A DNA stretch of 64,000 nt from Corallium rubrum. Lineage: Eukaryota > Cnidaria > Anthozoa > Scleralcyonacea > Coralliidae. The notes beneath the pieces were generated by a model that ran no database searches, was not told the DNA's origin, and was given only the letters and a program-made list of their open reading frames with translations. The translations under genes were made by a program, and so were the position numbers. The stretch lies in assembly GCA_964035015.1 (NCBI GenBank), contig OZ036017.1:2500981-2564980 (forward strand). The letters run 5' to 3'. This document shows, piece by piece, positions 42,609 through 63,783 of this stretch. The stretch's first letter is position 1. The number at the start of each line of letters is the position of its first letter.

Positions 42609-42975
42609 CACAGCCAACATCATGGAGAATTTTGTAAATAAATCAGATTGAAACTTTGTGTACACGTGTGTGTGTGATGCATGGCTAAAACAAAACCACA
42701 TTTAATAGTCAATCTTGATTGTTGTTATAGAGACGGAACTTAAATTGGAAGAGTCTACAATTTCGGATCAAAAAGACACCATATGCTGGTTCATGGAAAA
42801 TTTTCTTGATCCCGAACTTTACCTTCTTAAGGAAGAAGTATGCCAAAAACTGGAAAGGTAACGTCATTTCTGTCCCATAAGTATCATCGGCGCCGCTCTG
42901 TTGTTGAGTTGTAACGGCAGAAGTCACGTGCAGACAGTAGATAATTATATAATTATAGTGGGTGTTGTTGTTTTT

Positions 42976-43472
42976 ACTCTACTCTACTCTACTCTACTCT
43001 ACTCTACTCTACTCTACTCTACTCTACTCTACTCTACTCTACTCTACTCTACTCTACTCTACTCTACTCTACTCTACTCTACTCTACTCTACTCTACTCT
43101 ACTCTACTCTACTCTACTCTACTCTACTCTACTCTACTCTACTCTACTCTACTCTACTCTACTCTACTCTACTCTACTCTACTCTACTCTACTCTACTCT
43201 ACTCTACTCTACTCTACTCTACTCTACTCTACTCTACTCTACTCTACTCTACTCTACTCTACTCTACTCTACTCTACTCTACCTACTCTACTCTACTCTA
43301 CTCTACTCTACTCTACTCTACTCTACTCTACTCTACTCTACTCTACTCTACTCTACTACTCTACTCTACTCTACTCTACTCTACTCTACTCTACTCTCTA
43401 CTCTACTCTACTCTACTCTACTCTACTCTACTCTACTCTACTCTACTCTACTCTACTCTACTCTACTCTACC
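42976..43472. repeat. (CTCTA)n pentanucleotide microsatellite
   Basis: Roughly 100 copies of CTCTA with a few 1-3-base slips. It has no stop in several frames, which creates a false Thr/Leu/Tyr/Ser protein. It lies just before a splice acceptor and so is probably intronic. Confidence 0.97.
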
Positions 43473-43491
43473 TTTGTTATTTCATCCATAG

Positions 43492-46454
43492 CTTTCCTTG
43501 GTTAAGTGGTGCATATGGAATTACTGGTCCTAATAAAAAAATCCAGCGTCCCCACCTTTATATCACAGTCAAAAGAGGAATATCGAAATCCAAGGTAAGA
43601 AGTGGCATTGAAAAGAAGTTTGGAGCCAAAGCCATTCAATATGTCGAGCTTCTTCAAGAGCGGAAAAAGCTGCCGACAGTCAAATTTATGTCAGGAAGAA
43701 GACAAGGGCGGCGTGTAGAATCTAACAATCAACCTGCTCCCGGCGGTGGGATATCAGTTCAGAACGGATCGAATCCTTTGCAAACTGTTGGTCAAGAAAT
43801 ATTCATGGACAGAGAATCTGGGGCTTCTGGGACATTAACTTTGTTCAGTGCTTCTGAAGATAGTCACTACGCAGTCACTTGTTATCACGTTGGTTGTGAT
43901 GACAACCGTATCCCATTCTTGGTGGCTTTCCGACACAGTCCTTTGAGTGTCTTTCAAGAGTATACATCAAATGCAGCAAATGGAGATCATATAATGCAAA
44001 ATAGTATGTTCTATTACCACTATCAAAGAAACGATCACGCACTGCATGACAGTGCTGATGAAAACCAAGGCAATGCTTATGAGAACCACGACAATGCTTA
44101 TGGGAACCACGATAATGGTGATGGAAACCACGACAGTGCTGGTGGAAACCACGACAGTGCTGATAGAAACATGCATGACAGTGCTAACGGAAACCATGAC
44201 AATGGTGATGGTGATGGGAACCACGACTGTGGTGATGGAAACCAAGACAATGGTGATGGAAACCAAGACAGTGGTGATGGAAACCAAGACAGTGGTGATG
44301 GAAAACAAGACAGTGGTTATGGAAACCACAACAATGGTGATGGAAACCAAGACAATGGTGATGGAAACCACGACGGAAAGCACGACTGTGCTGACGGAAA
44401 CCATGACAATGGTGATAGGAACCACGACAGTGTTGATGAAAACCACGACGGTGTTGATGAAAACTACGACAGTGTTGATGAAAACCACGACAGTGTTGAT
44501 GAAAACCACGACAGTGTTGATGAAAACCACGACGGTGTTGATGAAAACTACGACAGTGTTGATGAAAACCACGACAGTGTTGATGAAAACTACGACAGTG
44601 TTGATGAAAACCACGACAGTGTTGATGAAAACCACGACGGTGTTGATGAAAACTACGACAGTGTTGATGAAAACCACGACGGTGTTGATGAAAACTACGA
44701 CAGTGTTGATGAAAACCACGACAGTGTTGATGAAAACTACGACAGTGTTGATGAAAACCACGACAGTGTTGATGAAAACTACGACAGTGATAATGAAAAC
44801 AAAGACAGTGTTGATGGAAACTACGACAGTGATAATGAAAACTACGACTGTGTTGATGAAAACTACGACAGTGTTGATGAAAACTACGACAGTGGTGATG
44901 GAAGCCAAAACAATGTTGATGAAAACTACGACAGTGATAATGAAAACCACGACAATGTTGATGAAAACCACAACAGTGGTGATGGAAGCCAAGACAATGT
45001 TGATGAAAACTATAATGTTGATGAAAACTACGACAGTGTTGATGAAAACCGCGACAGTGATAATGAAAACTACGACAGTGATAATGAAAACTACGACAGT
45101 GATAATGAAAACCGCGACAGTGATAATGAAAACTACGACAGTGATAATGAAAACTACGACAGTGATAATGAAAACAAAGACAGTGTTGATGGAAACTACG
45201 ACAGTGATAATGAAAACTACGACTGTGTTGATGAAAACTACGACAGTGTTGATGAAAACTACGACAGTGGTGATGGAAGCCAAAACAATGTTGATGAAAA
45301 CTACGACAGTGATAATGAAAACCACGACAGTGTTGATGGAAACTACGACAGTGATAATGAAAACTACGACAGCGTTGATGGAAACTACGACAGTGATAAT
45401 GAAAACCACGACAATGTTGATGAAAACCACAACAGTGGTGATGGAAGCCAAGACAATGTTGATGAAAACTATAATGTTGATGAAAACTACGACAGTGTTG
45501 ATGAAAACCGCGACAGTGATAATGAAAACTACGACAGTGATAATGAAAACTACGACAGTGATAATGAAAACCAGGACAGTGCTGATGAAAACCAGACAGA
45601 CCCAAACAACAGCAGCATTACCAGTGAAGTGGATCGTGTTTTGCTTGGAATGTTCTGTAAAGGTTATTTCACCGAGAACTGCGATATAATGTCCATAAAA
45701 ATTCGCGATGGTCTGGAACTTAACTGTCCTGTAATTGAAACAAACTTTCCTAACAAAAACAACATGATGGGAGAATTTTGTAAACGTCTTATCATGGAAA
45801 GCCCCAACCCTGAAGATCGTGTAAAGGTCGAGCATGACGGCTACACTTCAGGAAGGACCTATGGCTACTTAGTCAAGTACGGGTGCAATTATTTTTGTAA
45901 TTTGTAACGGTAAAAGACTATTTCAAAATGCCTATGCCATCAAAGGAGTTGATGATTGCACGTTCTTAGAACCAGCGGACTCTGGTACCCTTGTGTCATT
46001 TCATGCTAAAAATGGTCAGAAATATGGGTTTGCTTATGGTGTTTTTGAAGTTCTTGATTTGCCTTTACCAGACGATGACTACGCGAGTTTCAAAACGATG
46101 GATTACACTGAGAGCAATGATGACAGTAGTAATGAAAGTAGCGTTTGGGGTAGCGATGGGAATGATGATGAAAATGATCCTAGTGGTGTTATAAGTGACG
46201 ATGATACGAAGAGTGACAGTGGTGATGATAACAATGAAGTCTGTCACTTGGGTTTACTATTTGCTCCCGAAGATGATTGTGCGAATGAAGATGATGATGT
46301 GGTTTTTTGTGACGACAACGTAGAATACGAAATAGAAAGAGAAACGAACTGTGCTACGATGGCTCCATTGTATATCTGTCACGACCTCTGTGTAGCTTTG
46401 GAGAGACTAGAACTTTCAGATACGCCTTGTTTTGGTGAATGTCAACAACCTTAA
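43492..46454 (+). CDS. trypsin-fold serine-protease-like protein with 7-residue repeat insertion
   Basis: The exon begins after a good acceptor (TTGTTATTTCATCCATAG, ends 43491). The N-terminal part contains KFGAKAIQYVELLQERKKLP and then GASGTLTLFSASEDSHYAV followed by TCYHVG, which resembles the GTLG...TCxHV histidine block of trypsin-like proteases. After about 44040 comes an acidic repeat region to about 45595, made of 7-residue units such as DENHDSV, DENYDSV and DNENYDS. Then a folded segment resumes (DRVLLGMFCKGY; KVEHDGYTSGRTYGYLVKYG). A frameshift near 45890-45900 separates this from EPADSGTLVSFHAKNG, a candidate GDSG-like serine block, and an acidic tail ending at 46454. The Asp of the triad was not found. 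Either a pseudogene or an assembly indel. Host-type gene, function unknown. Confidence 0.5.
44040..45595 (+). repeat. 21-bp coding minisatellite
   Basis: About 70 imperfect tandem copies of a 21-bp unit that encodes seven residues. Higher-order structure is visible: a block running from a DNENKDSVDGNYDS segment to DENRDSDNEN is present twice (about 44785-45090 and 45165-45570). Every frame on both strands is largely open because the unit length is a multiple of three, so the antisense reading is a shadow. Confidence 0.95.
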
Positions 46455-49606: not shown

Positions 49607-50676
49607 TTAAAAAAGGAAGAGTGGCGCAGAACCAATATTACCATTTAGAGAAGGTTTAAGTTTGCGAATAAGTAAGCTTTCTCGGAGAAGAAGTTCAGAC
49701 TCAAAAGAACAAGAAGAAATGATTTTAAAATCATCAAATGAGACAGGGTGACCAGTGTCATGGTGATGAGAAAGAATGTTAGTGGGAGAAGGGTTAGTGC
49801 GTTTCTTTCCAGTGAGAGGTGAGATTCCCATGTGCTCCGAAACACGTGTATGTAAGTGTCGGATTGTTTCTCCGACATACTGTACGAAGCTCCACAGCTT
49901 CGACACATAACACGATAAACGACACGTGATCTTAGACGAAAAGGAATCTTGTCTTTGAAAGAAAAGAAAAGAAAAGAAATGGTAAAGCCTAACCGAAGGA
50001 CGAGCAATATACCTAACGTCGATATGAGGATAAGCAGATGAGAAACGTTTTCTCATTTGGGTTCGGATTTGAAGGAAATGTTGTCCAGTAAATGGTAAAG
50101 AAAAGTAAACAATGCGTTTAGGAACCGTAGGTATTTTAGTTGATTTTGAAAAGAACTTGTCAAGAAAAGTGGCAATGCAGCTATCAAGAAATTTTTCCGG
50201 GTAACCATTGCTAATGAAAATGCGTTTAAGCTTCTCTAGTTCGACATGAAAAATGGCATACGTAGAACAAATATTAAAGCAACGGTTGAGTAATGAAAAA
50301 ATCAGACCTCTTTTATAAGAGAACGGAATAAAAGAATCAAAAGAAGTCAATAGGCCTGTAAAAGTTGGTTTGCGGTAAACACTCGTTGAAAAGCAACCAC
50401 CGGAACGGGTGACATTAACATCTAAGAACGGTAAAGATTTGTTGACTTCCAATTCATGCGTAAATTTTATTTTTGGATGCTTAAAGTTTAAATAGTTAAG
50501 AAAGGAAGAACGTGATCACGAGAACGAAATAAAATGAAACAGTCATCAACATAACGGCGATAGAACAATGGTTTGAATTCAGATGGACAGATGAAACCAA
50601 GTTCGAAAAACTTGACGACGACCCCGTTCAGCTTACCCTTAAACGTGAAAATGCTGTTTTTAAAGGAACTTAACAA
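49607..50676 (-). pseudogene. Penelope-like element PLE-C, minus-strand part (RT end and GIY-YIG)
   Basis: From 50676 downwards: the RT catalytic segment FYRRYVDDCFILFRSRDHVL (50488-50620), then LPFLDVNVTRSGG, SVYRKPTFTGLL, a linker and the endonuclease with QYVGETIRHLHTRVSEHMG and HDTGHPVSFDDFKII (ends at 49607). The first GIY strand is unclear because of frame damage around 49920-50000. The RT upstream of the catalytic box is missing: the frame joins a foreign junction near 50600-50680. Together with 50640-51507 it forms a head-to-head pair. Confidence 0.85.
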
Positions 50677-51507
50677 AAACGGTGTTATCTCAGACGGCCA
50701 TTATCAAGATCTCAGTCTTACTGGTTCTCGGCCAGGTATTTTATATGGTCTTCCTAAGATACATAAGCTTAATGTTCCACTTAGACCTGTCCTTTCTTCT
50801 GTTCGTTCTCACTCTTTCAACTTAGCTAAGTTTTTAGTTTCTTTATTTCGACCATTTTCTAACAGTGCTTCTCGGTTTTTGATTCCTTTTCTTTTGTTAA
50901 ACGTTTTCGACTTAAGTTTCAACACTAACGAGCTTTTCATGGTTAGCTTTGATATAACCTCTCTTTTTACTAACATCCCATTAGACGAAACCATCGACAT
51001 TATAATTCAAAAGCTTTTTACTAGTTCCACTAAATTTCACGGCTTTTGTATTTTCGAATTTCGCAATCTTCTAAATTTAGCGGTAAAAAATTGCCATTTT
51101 CTATTCAATGGTGAAATCTATCAACAGGTAGATGGCGTTGCCATGGGTTCTCCCCTGGGACCTCTCTTCGCCAATATTTTTCTTTCCAATCACGAATGTA
51201 TTTGGCTTAACGACTGTCCATGCATCTGAATTCAAACCATTGTTTTATCGCCGTTATGTTGATGACTGTTTCATTTTATTTCGTTCTCGTGATCACGTTC
51301 TTCCGTTTCTTGACTATTTAAACTCCAAGCAAACCGAAAATAAAATTTACGCATGAATTGGAAGTCAACAAAGCTTTACCGTTCTTAGATGTTAATGTCA
51401 ACCGTTCCGGTGGTTGCTTTTCGACGAGTGTTTACCGCAAACCCACTTTTACAGGCCTATTGACTTCTTTTGATTCTTTTATTCCGTTCTCCTATAAAAG
51501 AGACTAG
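50640..51507 (+). pseudogene. Penelope-like element PLE-C, plus-strand part (RT core)
   Basis: Encodes the RT fingers and palm: GILYGLPKIHKLNVPLRPVL, MVSFDITSLFTNIPLDETI, VDGVAMGSPLGPLFANIF and, after a frame change near 51220, RRYVDDCFILF (catalytic YVDD intact). Ends abruptly at about 51507 in the segment corresponding to IPFSYKR, so thumb and endonuclease are absent. The 51230-51507 part duplicates 50340-50620 of the minus copy almost exactly. Confidence 0.88.
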
Positions 51508-51905
51508 TATAGGACTTGTGGGTGCCGGCGCACTTTTTTTTTTGCCGCCAAAAATACCCCCAAAAGGTTGGAATTTAACGGGAAAGGACGTTTGAAAAGA
51601 TAAATTGTTTTTTTCCCATTTTAAAGTATAAGCGCCCGGAAAATGGATTTTAAAGAGTACAGCACAAACTCCCCCTCTCAAAACGCTTCACAGAAGCTTG
51701 GCTGTCCCACAGAAAACACCTCATATTGTTGGATTTAATGGATATCTCACGAATCTGAAATCTGAAATGTGGGGTTAGGGCAGGTGGTTAACCCAACCGT
51801 ATGTGAATTACTCCATTAACTGTTTAACCGTGTGAGGTCTGTGCAGGTGGCAGGAGGGGGGACGGCCAATCAGCTTTTAACCCATAAATTAGAGTTTTTG
51901 TCTGA
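51508..51905. other. unassigned stretch left of the virus-like element
   Basis: A short plus-strand frame near 51513-51600 reads IGLVGAGALFFLPPKIPPKG, a membrane-like segment, and another starts MDFKEYSTNSPSQNA near 51643. Neither is long enough to support a gene. They could be worn genes at the left edge of the virus-like element. Confidence 0.3.
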
Positions 51906-51910
51906 AAGTT

Positions 51911-52018
51911 GGTTTCGGTTTTGGTTTTGGTTTTGGTTTTGGTTTTGGTTTTGGTTTTGGTTTTGGTTTTGGTTTTGGTTTTGGTTTTGGTTTTGGTTTT
52001 GGTTTTGGTTTTGGTTTT
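51911..52018. repeat. (TTTTGG)n hexanucleotide microsatellite
   Basis: About 18 perfect TTTTGG units immediately next to the last minus-strand gene of the virus-like element. Confidence 0.97.
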
Positions 52019-52035
52019 GAGGGCTAACGCAGAGT

Positions 52036-52662
52036 TTAGTTAGTTTCCGGTTTCTGTTCAACTACTTTTGTTTTATGTTGACACACATGTTTTCCCACAG
52101 TTATACCTCCGGATAAGAGTCCGAGACATGGTAGATACGGTGTACACATTGCCACAACTTTACCAACGTCACTCTTTAACAGTTTATCTTTTTGTAGCTC
52201 GGTGTTTAGCGCCTCAGAGCTTTCTACGGCGTCCAAATTAAACACCCGAGGACATTAGAGAACCTACTGATCAGCATATCAGTCAAGAATTCGTTAGCTC
52301 TTTCCATCCTTCTAGCCTCATATTCAGAGTACAGTTTATCCACAACCTTTACCGACGCTTTTCTGATGTAGCTGACTGACTGACTGAGTCACCTCACCAT
52401 CCTCTGATAGTTTTATCAGGTCACTCCTCTTCTTGTTGGTGTCATCGGTTGGTGGGGACGCTGAGTTGGTTTTAGACTTTTCCAGTGTCGGTTCAGTTTC
52501 CTCAGCCTTTTTTAGCTCATTGACGAACTCATCGACGAGGTTGGTGACTTCAGTAGGTATTTCCGTTTCTAGTTCAGCCCCAACAAGTGTCTCGACTGGT
52601 GTGTTGGCAGATGCCTTGTTTTTTCCCCCAGCTTTTACCGGTTTAGTTTTCCTTTCAACCAT
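52036..52662 (-). pseudogene. virus-like element gene V1: unknown small structural-type protein
   Basis: Starts at 52662 (MVERKTKPVKAGGKNKAS), with an acidic, low-complexity middle (LVDEFVNELKKAEETEPTLE) and, after a frame change, a helical segment with YSEYEARRMERANEFLTDML and a final hydrophobic stretch YLPCLGLLSGGITVGKH before the stop at 52036. The first frameshift lies at a CAGT/GACT tetranucleotide run (about 52372-52390), a typical slippage site. The second lies near 52250. Directly downstream of the packaging ATPase with almost no gap, so probably co-transcribed. Function unknown; a late, capsid-associated role is inference from position. Confidence 0.55.
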
Positions 52663-52663
52663 C

Positions 52664-53273
52664 TTACTGTAGACCAGATTTTTGGGTGACCACCTTATAC
52701 GCGTACGGATGTCTTAACGTAACCTCAAGCCTAGTGTATTTGTTTTCTTTTAACTTTTCAGTTACCCCTATGACGTTATCCCTACCTAAACCACCCAGGT
52801 AGTCATCAGTAGTAACCTTCATGTCAGACCTGTTGGGGTTGTAGAACGTTACCAACTTACTGATATTCTCCCTATAAGGTTTTGTGATAGCTGTTAGCTG
52901 TTGTGTGATTACAATAGTTGACAGATTGTAGTGTCGGGCGCTGAAGGCTAATTTAACCAACTCACTTGTTCTGTTCTTTACGGTTTGTCCACTAGCACAG
53001 TCGTCGAGGACTATTAGTGTTTTGGAACCTTTGAATATTCCGACAATGTGTTTCAGCATAATTTCGACGTCGTCCTGACTACACTCCACAGCGATGAAGT
53101 CCGGGTCGGGGGTGTACCTCCAAGTAGTATAGGTTTCGTTCCAGCTGAACGTCGGACAGAGCAGAACGATATAGTCGAAGAACCCGAAGTATTCATTCCA
53201 ACATCTTCAGGAGATACCAGGTTTTCCCACAGGCCGTCATACCAGTGACCAACATATTGAACGGGTGATCCAC
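52664..53273 (-). pseudogene. virus-like element gene V2: FtsK/A32-type DNA-packaging ATPase
   Basis: The N-terminal part holds a Walker A loop GMTACGKT (about 53223-53246) just after a HPFNMLV segment, the usual start of A32-like packaging ATPases. Walker B is TLIVLDDCAS (about 52994-53023), with a following STIVITQQL segment as in the family (sensor/arginine region). A frameshift lies at about 53195-53210 between the two motifs. The frame from there to the stop at 52664 is intact (141 residues). Total about 200 residues, normal for this family. It would pump the genome into capsids. It follows the candidate capsid gene after a single TAA. Dead copy. Confidence 0.78.
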
Positions 53274-54474
53274 TTAATACTGAATTGATTTTAGATTTTT
53301 GTTTACCATGTTCACCAAACCATCACTCAGCACAAAGATTCGGCAGACTACATTAGCCACGGTCGCCTTTTTGGTGATCTCGATCAGGACCCCAGACTGT
53401 GTATTAACAATTCTTTTCCCAGTCCCGACACTATTACGATCGGCAATACTTCTCAAGTCAATCGCCAGAGCGAAGGCGTCCTTATAGAATTTCCGGATTG
53501 TCATAAACTAGTACTGATCGAACTCTTCCTTCCCACCGAATAGTCTTTCAGCTTCATCATAGAACCGGCTCTTTGGGATCCCTTGACTGAAGACGGCGTT
53601 GGGTACACCCTCGATTGTTAGCTTAACACTTTCGATGTTTGGATAGACGTATTCCTCACTATCAGTCCGGGTTTTATTTGTGAACATCATCACAATACCT
53701 TTCATAGACTTTCGTGGGAGGTTAATGTGTTCGTTGATTAGGGTTGATCCAGCCGCCCATTCAGTTGACTTCATCAGCGTCACGTGTTCGTAGGAAAGCG
53801 ATTGGCCAGTTGTGTACAGCGAGGTTATTTCGCTGGCGATGTCGGTGTTATCAACCGTCTCCTACTCCAGTTCGAGGTTTTCCAGTGTGTACCCGTCAAC
53901 AGATTCATTTGACTGGGCCACCATAACGTCGCTCGCCTTTGACAGACTAATGATGTAGCGGAAGTTGTTATACATTTCAAAGGGAGCGTAGAGTCCGTGG
54001 TCCTCAAGGATTTTATCCAGTTTTACTTTGAGTTTTGTCCCATGGATTGTGAGCATCAGAGCGTCAGCCACCTTCTCAGCGTCCCCAGAGAAAGCCCCAC
54101 TGTCGTCTTTAGACATCAACTTTCTCAAGTTCTCTGGACCAATTCCATATCCAACCATCTGATCCCTTACACTCTTCGATAGCCATGCAGAGATCCCTGT
54201 ACACATTGAAGACTCTTTCACCCGTGTTGTCGTAAACAGTCTCGCCGGCTAGCTTAATCACTAGCCTTTCAATCAGGAGCCTGGAGAGATTGTTTAGGAA
54301 CCACGACTTGGTGTTGGTGTTCTTGAAGTCGAACAATAAATGAAAGCCACCCGGGACCAAACAGCTATCAGGTTTTAGCTTTGGTATGTCGATGTAGAGG
54401 TCCTCACCAGGGTTGACTTTGTTGGGATTCATGGTGATGACATGTCTTGTCCTACTTCCCTTGATCTCCGACAT
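53274..54474 (-). pseudogene. virus-like element gene V3: candidate major capsid protein
   Basis: Internal ATG at 54474 starts MSEIKGSRTRHVITMN and runs in one frame to about 54190, where a frameshift occurs. A second frame continues to 53274 but is cut by TAG codons at 53862 and 53508. Total about 400 residues. The composition is beta-rich with segments such as LYIDIPKLKPDSCLVPGG, LAGETVYDNTGERVFNVY and LINEHINLPRKSMKG. I identify it as the capsid gene because of its size, beta-rich look and its position directly upstream of the packaging ATPase; a jelly-roll fold is not demonstrated. Ends FVLSDGLVNMVNKNL. Confidence 0.5.
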
Positions 54475-55585
54475 CTTCGCTCGTCTGAATCCGGGTGCCA
54501 ACAGAGGTCCCAGCTTCTTAGCTAAGTTAGCGAGTGCCTTAGCGAAACCACCGACAGCTTTCGCCCCACGTGAGACAGCTTTCTTAGCAGCCACAATTAT
54601 TGTTGTTATTATTCCAGCTATGGAGATGGCTACAGCGGACAGACCAATCATATTTTCCCTAACCCACTTTTTAAAACGTTCCAACCTATTCAGGTCATTA
54701 TTCTCCACCTCATTGGTTAAAACAGACACAGCTTCCATATGTTCAGGCCTTTCATCAATCCCAATTCTTATGCTGTCTGCCTTTAGTTTTGCTGTCTCGC
54801 TGACGCTTCTGTAGAACTGTTCCTTAACAAGGTCAGCTTCGTTCAGTGCTTTCAGTCTATAGTGATCGGCTTGTACCTCAAGGGCTTCAATCTTCTCCGT
54901 ATCCGTACTTTGTGGGTTGAGCGTTCCAGAGAATTCTCTTATTTCCTGCTCGCTCAGAAATATTCCGCCCACCCGATCCTGTAGTTCTTTCTCTCTTTCT
55001 TCAACCCGATCACTGATCACTGAGCTGACTCGTGAGATTATATCAGCCATCACTTCTTCAGAAATTGTTGGGTCGTTGTTGATTTCCTCAACCATTCCCT
55101 CGGTCGTATTGGAATGTTCAGTTCTGGCTTCATCTAACAGTGCTTTGAAAAGCTCAACGTGTTCGACTACTTTTGTTTATTTGTTTTCACTGTACCTAAT
55201 TCCATCACCCTCAGACACGAGAACTTTCACACTATCAAAAAATGCTCCGCTGACGTGACCCTTTTTGTCAAAAGTAAACTCAGTCTGTTCTATCAGTTTC
55301 TCAGACGCCTCACAATCTTTCTTATTTATCGTGGCACCTAACGTTACGCGAAAGATCTGGTTTTTATCATTTGTGATAGACCCTTTTATTGCCCTAATAT
55401 CACTAACCGACGTTGGGCACTCCATCTTCAATACGGGTTACACGCCCAGAAGGTCCGGACACGGGATCGTCCAGTCCGGGGTCCTCGTTGTCGTCTTCTA
55501 TGAGACTCGTCTCGTGGATACCATCTTCTCTTTCTCTACCTTCACTATGCTCATCCATTTCGATGTCAACTCCTCCTTCAGCCAT
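54475..55585 (-). pseudogene. virus-like element gene V4: coiled-coil/membrane protein
   Basis: ATG at 55585 starts MAEGGVDIEMDEHSEGRERE. A frame change near 55420 leads to SDIRAIKGSITNDKNQIFRV and VSEGDGIRYSENK, then an in-frame TAA (55177) and, in the same frame, VVEHVELFKALL and a long helical segment (EEREKELQDRV, IEALEVQADHYRLKALNEAD). A membrane segment IGLSAVAISIAGIITTIIVA follows at about 54635-54700, then a basic, Ala/Gly-rich tail (KKAVSRGAKAVGG). It then runs without a stop into the capsid frame, which may be decay. An acidic head, coiled coil, one membrane helix and a basic tail suggest a minor virion protein. Function unknown. Confidence 0.5.
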
Positions 55586-55596
55586 TACATACTAAC

Positions 55597-55947
55597 CTAT
55601 GTACAGCTCAAGCAGAACAGCTCAACATTCTCAGAACCGTTATTCCCGCGAACTCTAAAGGTCATCCTGTTGTAAGCACCCTTCTGAATCTCAACTTTCG
55701 ACTCAATGTCTGTATAATGCTGTACACTCCCTTTCAGACTCTGTTCAGAGGTGATTGGAAGAGTGCCAATCAGGTTACTCCTTTTTCCATTGTACAGACT
55801 TTCCCCACTTTCAACAGCGTCACATAAAATTTCAACATACATCAGTCCTCTATTTATGTCCACCTTGTTTGGACTGTTCGTCCACCCACTACCACCAGTT
55901 ATCACATCACCCTCGTTGAACCCTAAAAGAAGACCCATCTTTCCCAA
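55597..55947 (-). pseudogene. virus-like element gene V5: unknown, possible minor capsid protein
   Basis: A 116-residue frame starting at 55947 (MGKMGLLLGFNEGDVITGG) and ending MTFRVRGNNGSENVELFC; the same frame is open a further 15 or so codons upstream (SRIKTSKKLELGK), so the real start may be lost. It looks beta-rich and is first in the minus-strand gene row, before V4, V3 and V2. A penton- or vertex-like role is only a guess from position. The upstream end abuts the oppositely oriented V6. Confidence 0.4.
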
Positions 55948-55986
55948 CTCTAACTTCTTCGATGTTTTTATTCTAGAAGTTCCATC

Positions 55987-57264
55987 GTGGGGGCCCCGGC
56001 TAGAGTCTTAACGAACGTTTCCAACGCGTATTTAACCTACTACACCAAGTATTTAACAATAAATAAACCACCGCCAAGATTTCCAAAAATATGGCTTGGT
56101 GGTGGTACGATACAGAAAATTCAGGGTAAGCGGCACTGGAAGAGGGACATTGAGGGGAAATACGACTATTCGAGGTTTACATATTTGTCAGACAGTGCTA
56201 TAGACTATGACCTTAACAATTTCAGGATTTATGTTAACGGCCACCAGGACTTTTTTATGGCAAAATTACCAGTTCTAAATCCAGGAAATCGGACGGACAT
56301 CGCGAAAACGTGGAATAACAATGAACCTTATTACCAACTTATAACCGCTGTCTACCTCAGTTCATACTGCTGTGGCGTTGGGGTAGAACATTTGAAATTC
56401 TCAGATGACGTATACCCAGTAATTACCAGTATCATGCGTTTCCACCTTTATTTCACCACACGACGTATACTAAGGCGTATGATAACGGAAACGAAAAGCA
56501 GCCTAATGAGAGAGTTTGGCGTGGAAAGTTCTGATGTGATTGACAACATGGCGAATATACCTAGAGAAAAAAAGTTCCTGATTAATCCTCACTCTGGTTT
56601 CAGACACAACCGTCCATTTCATGAGTGGATGTGGCGTCTCAACAGCGATTATAAGACACACTACAGCAGGTTTATACCTTTACGAACAAATGGTTTTACC
56701 AAAATATGTCTGCAGTATCTGAATGAAAGTATTGAGGCTTATGTTTACGCCGTTCTCGGTTCACAGGCTAAAACAAGGGTCAGTATTGTTAACAAAGGTG
56801 CTGGCAGTCTCGAAACACAGCAGGAATTTAGAGTTCTTGTAGAAGATGCTGTTGTTAACTATAGTTTTAGTACTTGGATTTTGAATATGAACAGGGCAAT
56901 ATCAGATACTAACGTCACCCAGAATGTGGCTATAAGCCCTGCCACATGGTTAGTCCCAAGTTCAATGCTGATACTAAATAAGAAAATTCCGGGATATAAC
57001 AACTTACTGAAACGTGCATCAGAAGGTATGGAATTCGGTATTAATTCTGAAGTAAACTACCAAGGTGTTCACAAACAACCACCAAAGAAGCTACACCAAG
57101 AATGCGGTTCACACTTGGAAACACTAGACGACAAACCAGTTGTCCATACACCTAACAAACCAGCCGTCCATACACCTGATAGACAACCAGAGCTGGACAA
57201 TGAGTTGGGAATTTTGTTGACCATAACAGCTGTGTCTGGGTATCTGTTCAGTAAATACGTCCTA

Positions 57265-57267
<3 letters not shown>
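55987..57267 (+). CDS. virus-like element gene V6: intact 426-residue protein, unknown
   Basis: The only long undamaged frame of the element. It has no ATG at its left end: it opens with GTG at 55987 and the first in-frame ATG is about 90 codons in (FFMAKLPVLNPG), so the true start is uncertain. It has a Tyr/Arg-rich N-terminal part (KYDYSRFTYLSDSAIDYDL), a middle with MRFHLYFTTRRILRRMI and FHEWMWRLNSDYKTHYSRF, then a Pro/His-rich linker (VHTPNKPAVHTPDRQPE) and a C-terminal hydrophobic segment LGILLTITAVSGYLFSKYVL that ends the protein, as in a tail-anchored membrane protein. No enzyme motif recognised. Transcribed divergently from V5. The linker word GSHLET also occurs in V10. Confidence 0.6.
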
Positions 57268-57330
<63 letters not shown>

Positions 57331-57560
57331 TTATTTATTTGTTAAAACTGAATATACATTGCTACTTCAAGTTTCATGCCCGTAGGCAATCTTCAGGCAA
57401 AAGATTGCAAATCTTTTGCCTGAAGATTGCCTACGGGCATGAAACTTGAAGTAGCAATGTATATTCAGTTTTAACAAATAAATAAATAAATATCTGCTCT
57501 ACCAAAAAGTATTGAGCACTCTTCGAGCTATACGCAACAAAATCTGGTTTATCTGGTTTT

Positions 57561-57601
<41 letters not shown>
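57264..57601. mobile_element. solo inverted Penelope terminal repeats flanked by TA runs
   Basis: (TA)n at 57267-57326 and 57567-57600 bracket two inverted arms. Minus-strand (57367-57398) and plus-strand (57418-57450) copies of the variant hammerhead CTGAAGA, TTGCC/GGCAT stem, GAAAC lie head to head. The phrase AGTATTGAGCACTC near 57510 is the inverse of the PLE-B pLTR word GTGCTCAATACC. No Penelope coding sequence remains. It sits between V6 and V7. Confidence 0.65.
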
Positions 57602-57604
<3 letters not shown>

Positions 57605-58216
57605 TCTGTTTTATGGTTACAACAGACCGGTCACGGTGACTAAGAAACAACTCAACGATAAACTAAAAGAGGTCCTTCACACGAACGTTCGCGACTATAA
57701 GGTCATCTTTGACCTGAACGTAACCAGAGCTAGTAAGAACGCGATCTCCAAGTTCCCTCCATTCATTGATTACATAGAAGATAGGGACGGTACCGAGACC
57801 AACTCGGCCATGTTTTGGAGACCCAATAGTATCATGCCATGCAGCTAAACACTGCTGGCGACCACCACTTCCTTTACCATGAGTCCTCAATAAGAACGGC
57901 CCTTCACATTAGCATACCCAGACTCATGTTCACCGATGTCTCAGTTTTCATTGTGGTAAAGAGGAATAGTGTAAGACCGGCGTCAAATACCTGGGAAATA
58001 ATCATTTCCAATAGTGACAACAGTCTCGGTAAAAGCCTTGGGTTTAAAGCTGGGGTGAATGACACACTGTTTATAGATGGGTCGTCACCAGATAAGCTTC
58101 GCGAGTGTACAATCCCAGCGAAGTTCATTGGAAAGAAGATCTTAGTATCTGCCCACTGGCTATCTGGGCTTGTTGTGTCACACGTCAGGATAAATGGTGA
58201 GACGCCAAAAGACTGA
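57600..58216 (+). pseudogene. virus-like element gene V7: unknown, about 205 residues
   Basis: ATG at 57600, directly after the TA run, starts MSLFYGYNRPVTVTKKQLND. The frame breaks near 57845 at SIMPCS, and the next frame (from 57839) goes on with LNTAGDHHFLYHESSIRTAL to a stop at 58216 (VVSHVRINGETPKD). One frameshift thus separates two halves of one gene. The product looks beta-rich and lacks membrane segments. Not recognised. Confidence 0.5.
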
Positions 58217-58278
58217 TTTTTTATCTGAATGTGTTCGCGCTAAACCGCTTTGAAGAGTAACTTTTTAACTTTTACGGT

Positions 58279-58860
58279 ATGAAGATCGTAGAGGGTCGTC
58301 TGGGGGGACCCGAGATTGAAAAGATCTGTAACGAGACCATGGCTGAATACAACCTGTAGTTATATACTTATGAAAAGAAAAAGCGTTATTAGCTTCAACC
58401 ACATTGGTAAAAACCTCCAATCAGCTGAAGTAGACAAACTACAAAAGCTCTACTCGTATTACCACAAGCTAGCAACTTGTTACAAATGGAAATATACTCG
58501 GCTGAAGAGAATAAAACTAATCCTCGAGATTGTCAGCATTGGGTTGACTTTAATTGGAGGAATAGCTGGTGGCGTTACAGCTAACCCAGTGGTCCTCGGG
58601 ACCATAGCCGGTCTCGGGGTCCTAATCCAAGGGTATATGACTAAGTCGGGGATGCCTGGCAAACTGTTAGCTATCACAAGGTTCTGACACAAACCAGGAG
58701 CTTCCTACATGGAGTTAAATACGATGAGACTATTTTTTTGTCTGACGTTCGTGTACTCGACGACATTGTGACTGAGGTCTGCCCACGTTTCGACAGTATG
58801 ACTCCGCGGTACCACAAGAGGTATGGTCCACCAAAGACTGAGTCTGTCGGGTCTGGCTAA
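58279..58860 (+). pseudogene. virus-like element gene V8: small membrane protein
   Basis: Likely starts at 58279 (MKIVEGRLGGPEIEKICNET), shifts frame near 58340, and continues as a helix-rich segment (YSYYHKLATCYKWKYTRLKR) followed by two adjacent hydrophobic stretches, ILEIVSIGLTLIGGIAGGV and PVVLGTIAGLGVLIQGY (58530-58640). After a second frameshift near 58686 a hydrophilic tail (SFLHGVKYDETIFLSDVRVL) runs to TAA at 58858. Gly-rich paired helices suggest a membrane or virion-membrane protein. Function unknown. Convergent with the kinase gene. Confidence 0.55.
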
Positions 58861-59551
58861 CGGTTTTAACTATCTCTGGTATGTAGACGTCTCGGTTACC
58901 TACACAAGCCATCCAACCGTGGAATCCACTAGGAGTTTCGGTAAGAACATCGGTTAGAGACGATTCATCCGGACTGAAGTTTTCCCAATCGAGAGTTACC
59001 ACCTCGGTTCCCTTGTGCGTTATCATTTCAGTCATTTATTTCATGTACCTTTGTATCCACTCGAGATAGCTTTTGGTTACACCGGCTTCACATTCCCGGC
59101 CTCTTTTAAGCATTCGCCTGTGACAGGTGTCAACTGAGGCTTTCAGAACTATCAGGGCATCAGGGGTTGGGAGTAGATCATTCAGTTCGTGGAAGACCTG
59201 GGAGTAGTTAGAGAACTGTTCGTCAGTCACCCACCCATTACGCCAACAGTTTTTGGCGAAAGTTAGGCAGCTGTGATGTGTTCGCTCTATGATCACATTC
59301 TTCCCCTCGTTGATTAACTCCAGAGCCTTCAGGTAGGCGTCGATTCTTTCACCGAGGAACCAGGTCTCCATTTCGTACGCCCATCTTTCAGGTTCGGCGT
59401 AAAACTTTTCGAGGTATGGATTGTCGTCAACTGGCTCTTCAATAAAGTGGTAACGATTTCTTCTAGCGAATGGTTTCACGAACGTTGTTTTCCCCACACC
59501 CATGTTTCCGTCGAGGGCAATCAGCCGGGCACCGAGCTTTGGGTTGGTCAT
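58730..59551 (-). pseudogene. virus-like element gene V9: deoxynucleoside kinase
   Basis: ATG at 59551. P-loop GNMGVGKT at residues 15-22, the EEPVDD segment (substrate-binding EP, residues 38-43), WAYEMETWFLGER (residues 57-69), the catalytic ERT motif in NVIIERTHHS, and the arginine-rich lid RRMLKRGRECEAGV. These fit the dNK/dCK/TK2 family, which phosphorylates deoxynucleosides to feed DNA synthesis. An in-frame TAA follows residue 171 (59036). The same frame resumes at once and contains VVTLDWENFSPDESSL, which looks like the usual end of the family, so the gene was probably about 215 residues. The last stretch overlaps V8 antisense and may be artefactual. Confidence 0.85.
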
Positions 59552-59593
59552 TACCCCGGTTCACAATTTAGACCTAGACCTTTTGTATTTTAT

Positions 59594-59779
59594 ATGAAGA
59601 TCCCAAAGAGACTCAGACGACCCATACTAGTTGTCTTCCACGGACTCAGAAGAGCTATCAGAATAATAGGACATTGTGTTAGGAGGAATGATAAAGGGGA
59701 GCACTACGTAACCGAATCTGTTGGCTACTGGCCGACAACCTCGGAGGCTCCTACAGATCAACTGGCAGATGAAATATAG
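59594..59779 (+). CDS. virus-like element gene V10a: small basic protein, unknown
   Basis: ATG at 59594 opens 61 residues: an Arg-rich start (MKIPKRLRRPILVVFHGLRR) and an acidic end (TSEAPTDQLADEI). It lies 12 bases before the next ATG and just outside the kinase start, with transcription in the opposite direction. Could be a small DNA-condensing or virion protein. Confidence is limited by its size. Confidence 0.35.
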   Translation: MKIPKRLRRPILVVFHGLRRAIRIIGHCVRRNDKGEHYVTESVGYWPTTSEAPTDQLADEI

Positions 59780-59791
59780 ACCAATATATAG

Positions 59792-59907
59792 ATGGCTGAC
59801 GGAACTAAGTCCGAAACACCCAAGACAGAGACAGAAACCCCGGGTTCACACTTGGAAACCCCTAAGATAACATCCATAACCAAGACGGAGAGACAGACAG
59901 AGAGACA
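59792..59907 (+). pseudogene. virus-like element gene V10: N-terminal part, cut by a LINE
   Basis: ATG at 59792 starts MADGTKSETPKTETETPGSH, a Thr/Pro/Lys-rich tail-like sequence. The frame is interrupted at 59907 by the LINE. The remainder lies at 63127-63456. GSHLET here also occurs in the linker of V6. Confidence 0.45.
59895..59907. repeat. target-site duplication of the LINE, left
   Basis: AGACAGAGAGACA, identical to 63114-63126. Confidence 0.85.
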
Positions 59908-60098
59908 GAACATTTATTTAAAATCGGTGTTTCAATCAATAATTACAAATTGCTTTACATGAAAGCCGATTAAATATTTACATTAGTTGTATATACAGAT
60001 TATTTTTGTACTTTTGATAAAATTATGAAAAATTATAATATATTATATATGTACAAGTATTTCATTAATTTAAATTAATTTAAATGCTTACGATTATT

Positions 60099-60389
60099 TT
60101 AATGTGGGAAACTAAAGGATGAGACATAATTTTTAAACGATTTTAAGCTTGTTGCTAACCTTGCTTCGTTAGGTATACTATTCCACAGTTTTGCAGCATT
60201 GTACGCAAAACTGTCTTTTAAATAATTCGTTTTCGGTTTTAATAAGGCAATTTTCGTGTCGCGATCTCGAAGGTTATAATTTTCGGAATAATTGCACAAG
60301 TGTAAGTATTCTAAAAGATATGGAGGTGCTAGGTTGTTAAGTGCTTTATGTACGAGGACAACTCGTTGCTGGAGTAATATATTCCTCAA
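60099..60389 (-). pseudogene. LINE ORF2 C-terminal tail
   Basis: Encodes LVHKALNNLAPPYLLEYLHL, YNLRDRDTKIALLKPK and DSFAYNAAKLWNSIPNEARL, the conserved end of CR1/L2-type and jockey-type ORF2 proteins downstream of the RT thumb. It is out of frame with the endonuclease ORF, and the two overlap at the deletion junction near 60365-60380. Confidence 0.85.
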
Positions 60390-61602
60390 ATCCTTTGGTG
60401 GAGCTAGGTAATTCGGCCGCTAAATTGGGACCAATCTCAGTAAAGTGCTCGTTGAACAACTCAGCTATTTTGGCCTCATTGGTAAAGGTGCTAGATTTGT
60501 GAGTTATAGTGTGAATATTGTGTTCCGCCTTGTCATTTCGTGACATAACCTCGTTTATTGTTTTCCAAATTTCTTTTGGTTGACCTGATAAGTCTTTGAA
60601 ACGATTGAGATAATATTTAGATTTTGTTGTTTTAATTGCATTGTTCAGCCTATTTTTTGCATTCTTATAGTCCGCCCAGTTTTGTGAGCTGTTTGTTTTG
60701 ATAGCAAGAGCTTTTAGTTTATCTCGAGCAATCATTTGTCGTTTAATTTCGGAATTTAACCATGGCGATTTTTTATTTCTTATTCTTCTCTTTTTGAGTG
60801 GTGCATGTTTATCAATTACTGTGAGAAACATATCTTTCCAATTTTGCCACATGTCATTGGGATTATCAAATGTTTTTATGTTATCCCATGGCATGGAGCT
60901 TAGATCAGTTCTAAAACTTTCCGCCTGAAAGTTTTTGAAATTTCTTGATTCAACTACTTTATGTTTCTTTGTACACTGAATTGCTATTTTTCTGACTGCA
61001 AACACTAAGCAGTGATCACTAATACCTAATGGAAGGACCCCGCTGCAGACAATTCTGTTCGGCATATTCGTTAGTATTACATCGATTAGGCTTTTACTAG
61101 ATTCGGTAATTCTAGTAGGTTCATTGATTAACTGTGTGAGTTGATATAACTCAGCAAGCCCTTTAAACAAGCGTTTCGTTTTATTAGTCTCTACAGATAG
61201 CAAATTCGTATTTAAATCACCCAGAATAAATAACTCTTTGCCTTCATTATCAACTTTAGCAATAATTGTTTCTAAACATTTATAAAATTTATCACTATCT
61301 CCATTGGGAGGTCTATAGCTAGAAAGAATTGTAAACGCTTTACTATTGGGCTTCATTACATCAATGCACACAGCTTCCATTTCATCAGGAATTATTTGTG
61401 GTCTCCATTCGTAGTTAATTGTTTTTCGGATATAGATGGCTACTCCTCCACCGCTACGATTTCTGTCCTTTCGAATAATGTTGTAGTTCGTTAGAGCTAC
61501 GCACTCATTTGAGATAGTAGCATCTAATCTACTTTCATTAATAGACAGGACATCAAGATTTTCGTTTTCAACCCATGCACGTAACTCATCAATATGGCAC
61601 AA
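60346..61602 (-). CDS. LINE ORF2 remnant: AP-type endonuclease
   Basis: 418 residues beginning MCHIDELRAWVENENLDVL. Endonuclease landmarks: INESRLDATIS (metal-binding Glu), SGGGVAIYIRK, LFILGDLNTNLL (Asp/Asn pair), SLIDVILTN and GISDHCLVF (terminal SDH). The frame continues through the linker before the RT (SPWLNSEIKRQMIARDKLKA) and ends CPRT where the RT should begin. The true N-terminus probably starts a few dozen residues earlier (a segment SLLCHIDEL is preceded by a sequence ending in a stop). It nicks target DNA for reverse transcription. Undamaged but without RT. Confidence 0.9.
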   Translation of the reverse strand: MCHIDELRAWVENENLDVLSINESRLDATISNECVALTNYNIIRKDRNRSGGGVAIYIRKTINYEWRPQIIPDEMEAVCIDVMKPNSKAFTILSSYRPPNGDSDKFYKCLETIIAKVDNEGKELFILGDLNTNLLSVETNKTKRLFKGLAELYQLTQLINEPTRITESSKSLIDVILTNMPNRIVCSGVLPLGISDHCLVFAVRKIAIQCTKKHKVVESRNFKNFQAESFRTDLSSMPWDNIKTFDNPNDMWQNWKDMFLTVIDKHAPLKKRRIRNKKSPWLNSEIKRQMIARDKLKALAIKTNSSQNWADYKNAKNRLNNAIKTTKSKYYLNRFKDLSGQPKEIWKTINEVMSRNDKAEHNIHTITHKSSTFTNEAKIAELFNEHFTEIGPNLAAELPSSTKGFEEYITPATSCPRT

Positions 61603-61689
61603 TAGACTAGCAATATTAATAGAAGCTAATTTAAAACCTCTAACCTGTGGAATATAATTTGTACTTCCTTTAGTTTCCCACTCGGATAC

Positions 61690-62844
61690 TCAATATTGAT
61701 TTATATATGACTTGAAGTCTCTTGCTAATAAAGATGTTCCTCTAGTATTGAGGTGAATACCACGCGAGTTTAAACTACTTAGATTCATGTCCGGGTGAGG
61801 TATCATTTGCCAATCCCTAGACCGGCTAAACGATCGCAGAATTTTGTTTATTTCTTCACTTGCATTGCTTGCTTTCTTGGAGTCATTTCGTGGTGTAAGC
61901 TCCGACACTGCAATTTTAGTTTCCGGTGATTTTTGTTCAATGAATTCACACAGCTTGACTATCTTTTCGGCTACGTCTCTTGGATTTTCGTCTTTGACGT
62001 TGTTTGTTCCGACGTGCAAGATTATTCTTGAAGGTTTGGTTTCGAGTGTCGGAATTGAGTGATGGTGGAAGTCGTCCACTTTTGCCCCACTGAATGAGCG
62101 TATGACCACTTTACTTTGTTTATCTGACATTCTCCACCCTTCAAGTCTCGAGATTACAGAGTCGCCCATCACTACAGTCGAAGGTCGTTTATTTCCCCCC
62201 GCCGTTGTTTTCTCTGTTTTCGAGTTTGGCGTTGAATTATCTTTGTTGCGGTTAGGATTGCGATTTCGTCTTCTTGGTCTAACCTCAGACCAAGGTTGTT
62301 CATCATCCTTGTTTGTGTGTTCGTTGTCGTTGTCGTGTTGTTTGCTGCCTTGGGGAATTGTCGATGTTCCTTGATCATAACTCTTTGGAACCCGTGATTC
62401 ACTTGAACGATTGTGATTTTGTTCTTCAACCACAATGTTTAATGCACAGATGAGATTTTCTCTTTCTTGTTGCAAGTTTCTGATGGTTCTTTTGTATTCT
62501 TTTACTTCGTCTTTTAAATATTCGAGCTCATCGGTAAGCCTCTTTACTTCTTCTCCTTCACACGACTTAGTAGTATCCGTGAAAAGTTTAGATTTCATAA
62601 AGGATAACTCTTCTTTAATATAAGTGAGTTGTTGTTGTTGAATATTGTGATAATCACTGCTCTTTCCTGCTGTAGGAGAAGCTTTTTCTTCGTTCTTGTC
62701 CGCAGCATTCAACAATGGCGGCGAAGGAGATGCTTCGAGAACCTTTTGTCTAGAAGTTTCAAATATTTTCTTCAAAGTGTCCCTGACCGTTGTTGCTTTG
62801 TCGCCAAAGATCTTCATAGTCTCTGTTTTGGTGTAAGATCGCAC
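61690..62844 (-). CDS. LINE ORF1: coiled coil plus SGNH hydrolase
   Basis: 384 residues. Residues about 70-140 form a charged coiled coil (VKRLTDELEYLKDEVKEYKR, NLQQERENLICAL). A basic low-complexity segment follows (RPRRRNRNPNRNKDN). The C-terminal half is an SGNH/GDSL-type esterase: VVMGDSVISRL (catalytic Ser, residue about 226), FSGAKVDD (Gly block), ILHVGTNNVKD (Asn block) and RGIHLNTRGTSLLA (catalytic His near the end). ORF1 proteins with an esterase domain are known from CR1 and relatives. They bind the element RNA, probably with membrane or lipid contact. All four blocks are intact. Confidence 0.9.
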   Translation of the reverse strand: MRSYTKTETMKIFGDKATTVRDTLKKIFETSRQKVLEASPSPPLLNAADKNEEKASPTAGKSSDYHNIQQQQLTYIKEELSFMKSKLFTDTTKSCEGEEVKRLTDELEYLKDEVKEYKRTIRNLQQERENLICALNIVVEEQNHNRSSESRVPKSYDQGTSTIPQGSKQHDNDNEHTNKDDEQPWSEVRPRRRNRNPNRNKDNSTPNSKTEKTTAGGNKRPSTVVMGDSVISRLEGWRMSDKQSKVVIRSFSGAKVDDFHHHSIPTLETKPSRIILHVGTNNVKDENPRDVAEKIVKLCEFIEQKSPETKIAVSELTPRNDSKKASNASEEINKILRSFSRSRDWQMIPHPDMNLSSLNSRGIHLNTRGTSLLARDFKSYINQY

Positions 62845-63113
62845 AGAGTAATCGGACAGCTTCAGCGTTACTGAGCTATGTCTGGGGTCTTCAGCGATTT
62901 CACCATCTTGGACGTGGTCGTCAACAATACGCTAAGAAGTTCTTGAAGCTGACTTACGCTTCCTTTCCATAACAAGTTGTTACTCTCGTCATCAAAACCA
63001 ATAAGTTGTTCGAGGTCTTCCATAATTTAGAAGCCAAAGATCATATAACACAAAAACTTTCAATAATTCCTTACGAATTCGGGAGCTCGTAAAGACACGT
63101 CCGACTCGAGAGA
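62845..63113 (-). other. LINE 5' UTR
   Basis: No long frame on the minus strand in frame with ORF1; the region from the 5' target duplication to the ORF1 start. Plus-strand and minus-strand short frames here are not supported. Confidence 0.55.
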
Positions 63114-63126
63114 GACAGAGAGACAA
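63114..63126. repeat. target-site duplication of the LINE, right
   Basis: AGACAGAGAGACA, identical to 59895-59907. Confidence 0.85.
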
Positions 63127-63456
63127 AACGAGTGGCCGCTGGTAAACGACTGGCTCAGATATCGAAGGCAGCCAAGGAGAGGAAAGCCAGGGAGCGGCTG
63201 GCGGCTGAGACTGGCCTCGGAGTCGGTGGAAACTGGTCAACTGATTACGGATACCTAATTGGAACCGCCAGATTGGTTATCTATCGGTGGGGCCTCATTT
63301 TATTACAGCATGAGGCAGGAGGAAAGAGAGGTCCAGAGGTTGGAAACTGTTGAGGAAGAAAAGGCAATGAAAGGGACTGTAGTGAAATCCGAGCCACAAA
63401 ACGCCTTAACCCAAATGACCCGGGCTTCCCCGGTTTTAGACAGTTTTGATGAGTGA
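63127..63456 (+). pseudogene. virus-like element gene V10: C-terminal part, beyond the LINE
   Basis: Continues with a basic helix AAGKRLAQISKAAKERKARE, then GNWSTDYGYLIGTARLVI, which looks like a membrane segment, and after a frame change near 63300 a charged tail (YYSMRQEEREVQRLETVEEE ... VLDSFDE) to the stop at 63454. Probably a single-pass membrane protein in the intact element. Function unknown. Confidence 0.5.
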
Positions 63457-63472
63457 AATATATAATAGTATA

Positions 63473-63622
63473 ATGTCAACCGTCGACCGAAAAGAACTGT
63501 TCAACGAGCTCTACGACGTTCTCCTGATTACAAGCGGGGCTGTGGCGATCTCCATGACCTCGAAGAAGATACTGAGGGAACCTAAGGGGTATTTACCGGT
63601 TGATCCGTTCAAAACCAAGTAG
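63473..63622 (+). CDS. virus-like element gene V11: 49-residue small protein
   Basis: ATG at 63473 (MSTVDRKELFNELYDVLLIT) to TAG at 63620. It has an acidic start, a moderately hydrophobic segment LLITSGAVAISM and an end GYLPVDPFKTK. The expected membrane region looks short, so it may be an internally deleted form. It follows V10 by 16 bases, consistent with a gene row. Function unknown. Confidence 0.4.
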   Translation: MSTVDRKELFNELYDVLLITSGAVAISMTSKKILREPKGYLPVDPFKTK

Positions 63623-63656
63623 ATGTTCTCTGGGTTGGCCTGAGCCAGAAGGCTAA

Positions 63657-63780
63657 GGGAAAGTCGGGGCTGGAAGGTATACGGATAACTGTGAAATTTG
63701 TGGGAAAAACTTCGCCTCTAAGGGGAATCTCAACCAACACGTCAGACAAATCCACAACAAGGAGAAAAATTACATGTGTG
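63657..63780 (+). pseudogene. virus-like element gene V12: C2H2 zinc-finger protein, truncated
   Basis: A frame open from 63657 encodes one classical C2H2 finger: CEIC, twelve residues (GKNFASKGNLNQ), H, four residues, H (CX2CX12HX4H), then NKEKNYMCE where a second finger seems to begin. The frame then enters a repeat starting at 63784. No start codon is found in this frame, so it is a fragment. Could belong to the element or be a host relic. Confidence 0.55.
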
Positions 63781-63783
63781 AGG

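Follow-up and report, generated by a model that had tools for sequence, protein, structure and literature searches.

The 64,000-nucleotide stretch of Corallium rubrum DNA analysed here (the window, C56:2500981-2564980 of a 474-Mb genome) carries in its right part a gene block that we identify, with high confidence, as a decayed copy of a Polinton (Maverick), a known kind of virus-like, self-copying mobile element. This reading is based on the content and order of the genes, the fold of the capsid, the termini, the abundance of the element and the purifying selection seen between its copies; polintons as a family feature inverted terminal repeats, 5'-AG ends and a 6-bp target duplication. A first-pass annotation of the window had proposed an endogenous member or relative of the polintons and adintoviruses with a capsid and packaging ATPase module, and this membership or kinship is supported by the capsid fold, the A32-type ATPase and the recurring gene order. 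Of note in this family, and meriting specialist interest, are a recurring deoxynucleoside kinase (dNK), many well-preserved copies and a set of diverged genes.

The gene with Walker A and B motifs, previously taken for an A32/FtsK ATPase, was recovered as A32-type by profile search (PF04665; E = 1.3e-6 with the piece in the window, 7e-15 with an intact copy). It lies on the minus strand in two frames, with its Walker A part at 53,196-53,270 and the remainder at 52,670-53,197, and directly adjoins what had been noted as a beta-rich gene of roughly 400 residues. The latter is a capsid gene of about 410 residues (53,277-54,501, two frames, 2 stops), a double jelly-roll by homologue, with a fold closer to nucleocytoviruses than to adenovirus hexon; among the 120 homologues listed, the organism names were all Paramuricea clavata. 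A genome-wide search with an exact degenerate DNA pattern encoding the Walker A motif GMTACGKT gave 118 forward, 122 reverse and 0 control matches, and with 240 places against none in the controls, the ATPase is therefore part of a repeated element. We extracted about 10 kb around 15 of these Walker A sites, together with five flanks, and compared them with the right part of the window. The same genes recur in the same order in other copies of this genome, so that the gene block is more than a chance assembly. By tblastn against the 15 loci and the window, capsid and ATPase were each found in 16 of 16, V474 in 15, the integrase in 14 (in one case just 34 residues) and dNK in 12, a count affected by several loci ending before or inside dNK.

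In copy L009, dNK is followed by P170, P261 and V474 on the opposite strand, the integrase, a 228-233-residue candidate minor capsid gene, CC406, capsid, ATPase and P195, where the integrase (split in L009, open in L027) and P195 were taken from L027. Beyond dNK lie P127, a 129-residue protein resembling HNH/homing endonucleases (PHROGs, 1.7e-26), P139, a 218-residue cysteine-rich protein, the PolB-like gene and P277. Within the window, tblastn located ten element genes, mostly in pieces and split by stops or frameshifts, in place of the twelve or more counted initially. The features of the window copy are:

51503..51705, plus strand: left terminal region, degenerate; the stretch from 51,502/51,505 to 51,646-51,705 aligns with the terminal regions in L013, L019, L025 and L028
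51906..52020, no strand: expanded GGTTTT tandem repeat (repeat family D2) in the interval between terminus and first gene
52051..52662, minus strand: P195, with one C-terminal hydrophobic segment; decayed, 8 stops
52670..53270, minus strand: A32/FtsK-type packaging ATPase, two frames (PF04665; tblastn)
53277..54501, minus strand: major capsid protein (double jelly-roll by homologue), in two frames with 2 stops
54487..55585, minus strand: CC406, two hydrophobic segments near the C-terminus, N-terminal part diverged; broken
55639..55989, minus strand: remnant of the 228-233-residue candidate minor capsid gene, which is open in L009 and L027
55989..56040, no strand: deletion junction by alignment, about 1.5 kb including the integrase gene gone; L027 has the integrase there
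56041..57264, plus strand: V474, helical model, C-terminal hydrophobic segment; open, without the first ~55 residues
57323..57493, no strand: perfect inverted repeat, each arm 84 bp and the loop 3 bases long, adjoining AT microsatellites within the element
57600..58356, plus strand: P261, variable gene; broken
58373..58857, plus strand: P170, two pieces
58808..59632, minus strand: dNK, broken (PF01712, 1.3e-39)
60099..62844, minus strand: inserted retrotransposon without long terminal repeats, foreign to the element (Exo_endo_phos 1.3e-13, GDSL-like 1.5e-8)
63099..63453, plus strand: P127, polymerase-side gene, two frames; region common to L019, L030 and L031

Other loci align to the window from about 52,002-52,051 and reach at most 59,758; the alignment of L019 resumes at 63,126-63,783, and L030 and L031 align from about 63,108. 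The left stretch from about 51,505 is matched by four loci (L013, L019, L025 and L028), and the alignment places the left end of the element at about 51,503 rather than at the previously assigned 52,036. The end motif there (ACTAGTATAG, 10 bases) has one mismatch to the AGTAGTATAG of other copies and is insignificant alone; because such a 10-mer is common by chance, the left end rests on the alignment. To the right, the copy extends past the window to about 68,496 (L033:496), where the PolB match stops. This outer part, where the annotation had suggested looking for PolB, encodes a nuclease-like protein, one of membrane type and a cysteine-rich one, and includes the beginning of the PolB-like gene. 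The retrotransposon at 60,099-62,844, originally counted within the block, is absent from L019 at the same place, and the inverted repeat at 57,323-57,493 is probably a small nested insertion.

The annotation had reported no polymerase, integrase, protease or terminal repeats, and had considered the family possibly undescribed for want of them. For the protease this holds in the 20 sequences scanned. The remainder had to be revised, as the sister copies carry integrase, PolB-like gene and terminal repeats, and the PolB-like gene of the window copy lies outside the window. The integrase has 381 residues (L027:3633-4778) with an rve domain (PF00665, 8.2e-9) and a chromodomain (7.1e-10); judging from the alignment, its absence from the window copy reflects a deletion in that copy. 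In the C1 copy (L009 and L032), the terminal repeats stand in inverted orientation and agree at 98.6% over 517 aligned columns; the copy spans C1:2054555-2073633, or 19,079 bp, and is flanked by AACGTA on both sides when its start is set at AGTAGTATAG. The C15 copy (L024/L034), of about 17.8 kb and with its end regions extracted, likewise has AACGTA on both sides, one end carrying an additional AGT; the genome scan places a PolB match inside it, at C15:1430479. The six bases AACGTA lie outside the element, because other copies have different bases beside the end. That the C1 and C15 insertions share the same target duplication may be chance or target preference.

The PolB-like gene is present in sister copies and, to the right of the window, in the window copy itself. 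It has long open frames with PolB motifs, a PF03175 match below the cut-off on the exonuclease side (5.3e-4), and a BLASTP match (5e-4) to a protein from this genome that is positive for PF03175. In the C1 copy it is interrupted by a stretch of about 1.9 kb (L030:2211-4160), which the window copy lacks at that point. The genome also contains other PolB families (loci L038-L047), with strong DNA_pol_B_2 matches of up to 91.3 bits; in the ten loci cut out, these could not be aligned to the PolB pieces of the element (tblastn, 1e-5).

Several observations weigh against the assignment to the polintons. The 650-residue palm half of the PolB-like protein had no Pfam match at E 10, the protein had no relevant PDB sequence match, and hhalign against a four-sequence PolB profile returned a probability of just 2.1%. 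Among the core genes, the polymerase thus has the weakest support, and this profile result slightly lowers our confidence. The 228-233-residue gene, without a Pfam match, stays a candidate minor capsid gene, and no Pfam match to a Ulp1/adenain-type cysteine protease was obtained in the 20 sequences scanned; according to PMC4028283, a Ulp1-type protease is present in 74% of polintons. The 4.5 kb beyond L033:496 are without match to the extracted pieces of the C1 copy, so that the far end of the window copy is either truncated or interrupted. Far termini sought in three more copies (L035, L036 and L037) were not found, and both ends are known in two copies.

Genome-wide counts refer to the best scored candidates (135 of 538 for dNK, 108 of 1,391 for the integrase and 68 of 1,134 for PolB), the unscored ones being unconfirmed as copies. 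The 135 dNK matches have at least 86% identity and a coverage of 276 or more of the 289 residues; 66 of them contain an in-frame stop and the other 69 do not. Internal stops were absent from 104 of the 108 integrase matches and present in 4; for the PolB-like gene the numbers are 60 and 8, with many frames of 1,187-1,190 residues. Neighbour counts, which are lower bounds with 100 of the 240 ATPase places listed, agree in direction: for at least 41 of the 135 dNK matches an integrase follows downstream, on the same strand and no more than 8 kb away, and for at least 27 of the 108 integrase matches an ATPase follows downstream, with 0 upstream in either case among the matches listed; at least 30 of the 135 dNK matches have an ATPase within 14 kb.

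To estimate selection, copies with at least 80% gene coverage were compared, 10-15 of the 15 for nine genes, 6 for dNK and 7 for its kinase part. The ratio of nonsynonymous to synonymous change (dN/dS, ratio of means) between these better-preserved copies was 0.067 for the capsid (11 copies), 0.093 for the integrase (10), 0.103 for the ATPase (15), 0.124 for P170 (11), 0.176 for the minor capsid candidate (11), 0.185 for P195 (14), 0.286 for dNK (6), 0.293 for P261 (11), 0.298 for V474 (13) and 0.396 for CC406 (10); these values are limited by the choice of loci by the exact Walker A pattern and by coverage, which favours copies preserved above average, and by the non-independence of pairs. 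The lineages thus maintained these genes in working order over a large part of their past, with the kinase under looser constraint.

The dNK named in the annotation is real (PF01712, E = 1.3e-39), and PDB chains are consistent with the family (8puu, 2.5e-20). In the window copy the aligned stretch is interrupted by stops at query residues 16, 38 and 214, of which the last falls within the kinase domain. The 17 homologues are 26-36% identical, and those with names bear kinase names of prokaryote style, except for one animal NADH dehydrogenase subunit. The kinase had been regarded as an odd extra to the module; it recurs through the family, and no relative in another polinton was found among the 17 homologues, whose listing is without genomic context and may include polinton relatives. 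Nor was a dNK in a polinton reported in the literature searched, which left out most subscription papers. In a DNA virus as such, a dNK is not new: the available parts of the literature place dNKs in algal viruses (PMC4602308, with polintons cited just in the references), discuss the kinases of phages and large viruses (PMC4981718) and describe thymidine-kinase-like genes on bidnavirus-type segments (PMC11071296). For the present polinton family, the copies compared identify dNK as a recurring gene. Between copies, dN/dS was 0.247 for residues 43-289 (7 copies, 21 pairs) and 0.541 for residues 1-42 (10 pairs), and the sole stop of the L027 gene, at residue 40, precedes the start of a 247-residue open frame; on these grounds the first ~42 query residues are probably a leader and not coding. 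Many stop-bearing copies are alike, with one TGA in a 354-residue frame and a match to residues 1-284 or 1-285, which suggests a subfamily whose members have one stop in common, possibly located in the leader.

Three genes are diverged between copies. V474 falls into three classes in 13 copies, with 79-97% identity within and 42-63% between classes; CC406 pairs range from 47 to 83% (10 copies), the C-terminal part being better conserved, and P261 pairs from 62 to 97%. The pairwise identities of ATPase, capsid, minor capsid candidate, integrase and P170 covary (rank correlations 0.50 to 0.78, from non-independent pairs), whereas against these five genes V474 reaches 0.09 to 0.19 and CC406 -0.23 to 0.25. 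We read this pattern as a probable exchange of V474 and CC406 among elements, and our guess is that they are surface proteins. P261, at 0.27 to 0.55 and highest with the minor capsid candidate, partly follows the core genes and therefore gives weaker support to cassette exchange. In four loci P261 is doubled as a full-length tandem (L011:504-2100, L021:458-2054, L022:606-2202 and L026:642-2241), the two being 66-70% identical.

From what is known of polintons, the linear element would be replicated by its family B polymerase and inserted by the rve/chromodomain integrase, which would make the 6-bp target duplication; the double jelly-roll capsid protein and the A32 ATPase would package its DNA, and dNK would probably raise the supply of deoxynucleoside triphosphates for the element's own polymerase. 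Tentatively, one may go further and envisage a recently active, probably infectious cnidarian polinton lineage with an acquired dNK that supplies DNA precursors, in which at least two genes (V474, CC406 and perhaps P261, possibly of the surface) are swapped as serotype-like allele cassettes around a nearly constant capsid and packaging set. Polintons are central to origin models for eukaryotic DNA viruses. If this picture were true, near-intact copies, constrained capsid and packaging genes, a kinase feeding replication and exchangeable genes would make a good system for asking whether animal polintons still infect; PMC4028283 names the finding of active, reproducing polintons as an important challenge.

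Of the other explanations, two concern the nature of the element. An undescribed virus family with a morphogenesis module and kinase only, replicating unlike polintons, would fit the window itself, where neither polymerase nor integrase is visible, and the fact that no close relative of the kinase was found, but is most improbable, since sister copies have the integrase, the PolB-like gene, the terminal repeats and a target duplication, and the window copy itself has the PolB-like gene beyond the window. Polintons/Mavericks (PMC4028283) resemble this element in their size of 15-20 kb, their inverted terminal repeats and their target duplication, and in having a PolB-like gene, an rve integrase with a chromodomain, an A32/FtsK ATPase and a VP54-like capsid protein of double jelly-roll fold; here, the recurring dNK, the Ulp1-type protease not found in 20 sequences, the candidate status of the minor capsid gene and the strong divergence of V474 and CC406 between copies differ. 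Adintoviruses, including a Stylophora coral adintovirus (PMC11071308), are likewise animal-associated and have PolB, rve-chromodomain integrase, capsid and ATPase, whereas the capsid fold here is nearer to nucleocytoviruses than to adenovirus hexon. Chloroviruses and the related Yellowstone Lake algal viruses (PMC4602308) share a VP54-type capsid, an A32-type ATPase and a dNK, the kinases being likened by description, but have much larger genomes and, in the available part of that source, no reported polinton integrase. Meldviruses of mixed type combine polinton-type PolB and integrase with a capsid like that of larger DNA viruses; the example Meld23486 is described as poxvirus-like (PMC11071296). 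A chimera in that sense, with a capsid module from a large DNA virus and not from an ordinary polinton, is nevertheless unlikely, as polinton capsids, Hydra's included, match PBCV-1 VP54 (PMC4028283) and the observed closeness is thus expected of a plain polinton.

The other two concern function. We consider it doubtful that the kinase is a passenger gene from which the element gains little, though we give this reading more weight on account of the stops: 66 of the 135 scored dNK copies have at least one in-frame stop in the aligned span, whereas the integrase has them in 4 of 108 and PolB in 8 of 68. In its favour are also the dN/dS above that of the core genes and the presence of all three dNK motifs in just 3 of 7 copies (L009, L023 and L027) and the window copy, as judged by strict patterns over whole loci, some of them cut. 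Against it stands the dN/dS of about 0.25 for the kinase part, and some of the 66 stops may lie in the probable leader, as in L027. A purely intracellular spread by transposition, without any infectious phase, would agree with the many insertions in one genome and with no relative having been found in IMG/VR; we hold it to be rather unlikely, since the genes for capsid and ATPase rank with those under the strongest constraint (dN/dS 0.07 and 0.10) and an intracellular transposon would presumably not need them.

Two further observations concern the DNA to the left of the polinton copy. At 42962-45907 of the window, open frames of 473-981 residues on both strands are built of short tandem repeats and are probably not genes. 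Inverted reverse transcriptase fragments at 49607-51502 (RVT_1, E = 6.3e-4, below the cut-off), with arms at 50308-50476 and 51334-51502 that are 96% complementary, abut the left end of the element; we take them to be Penelope-like.

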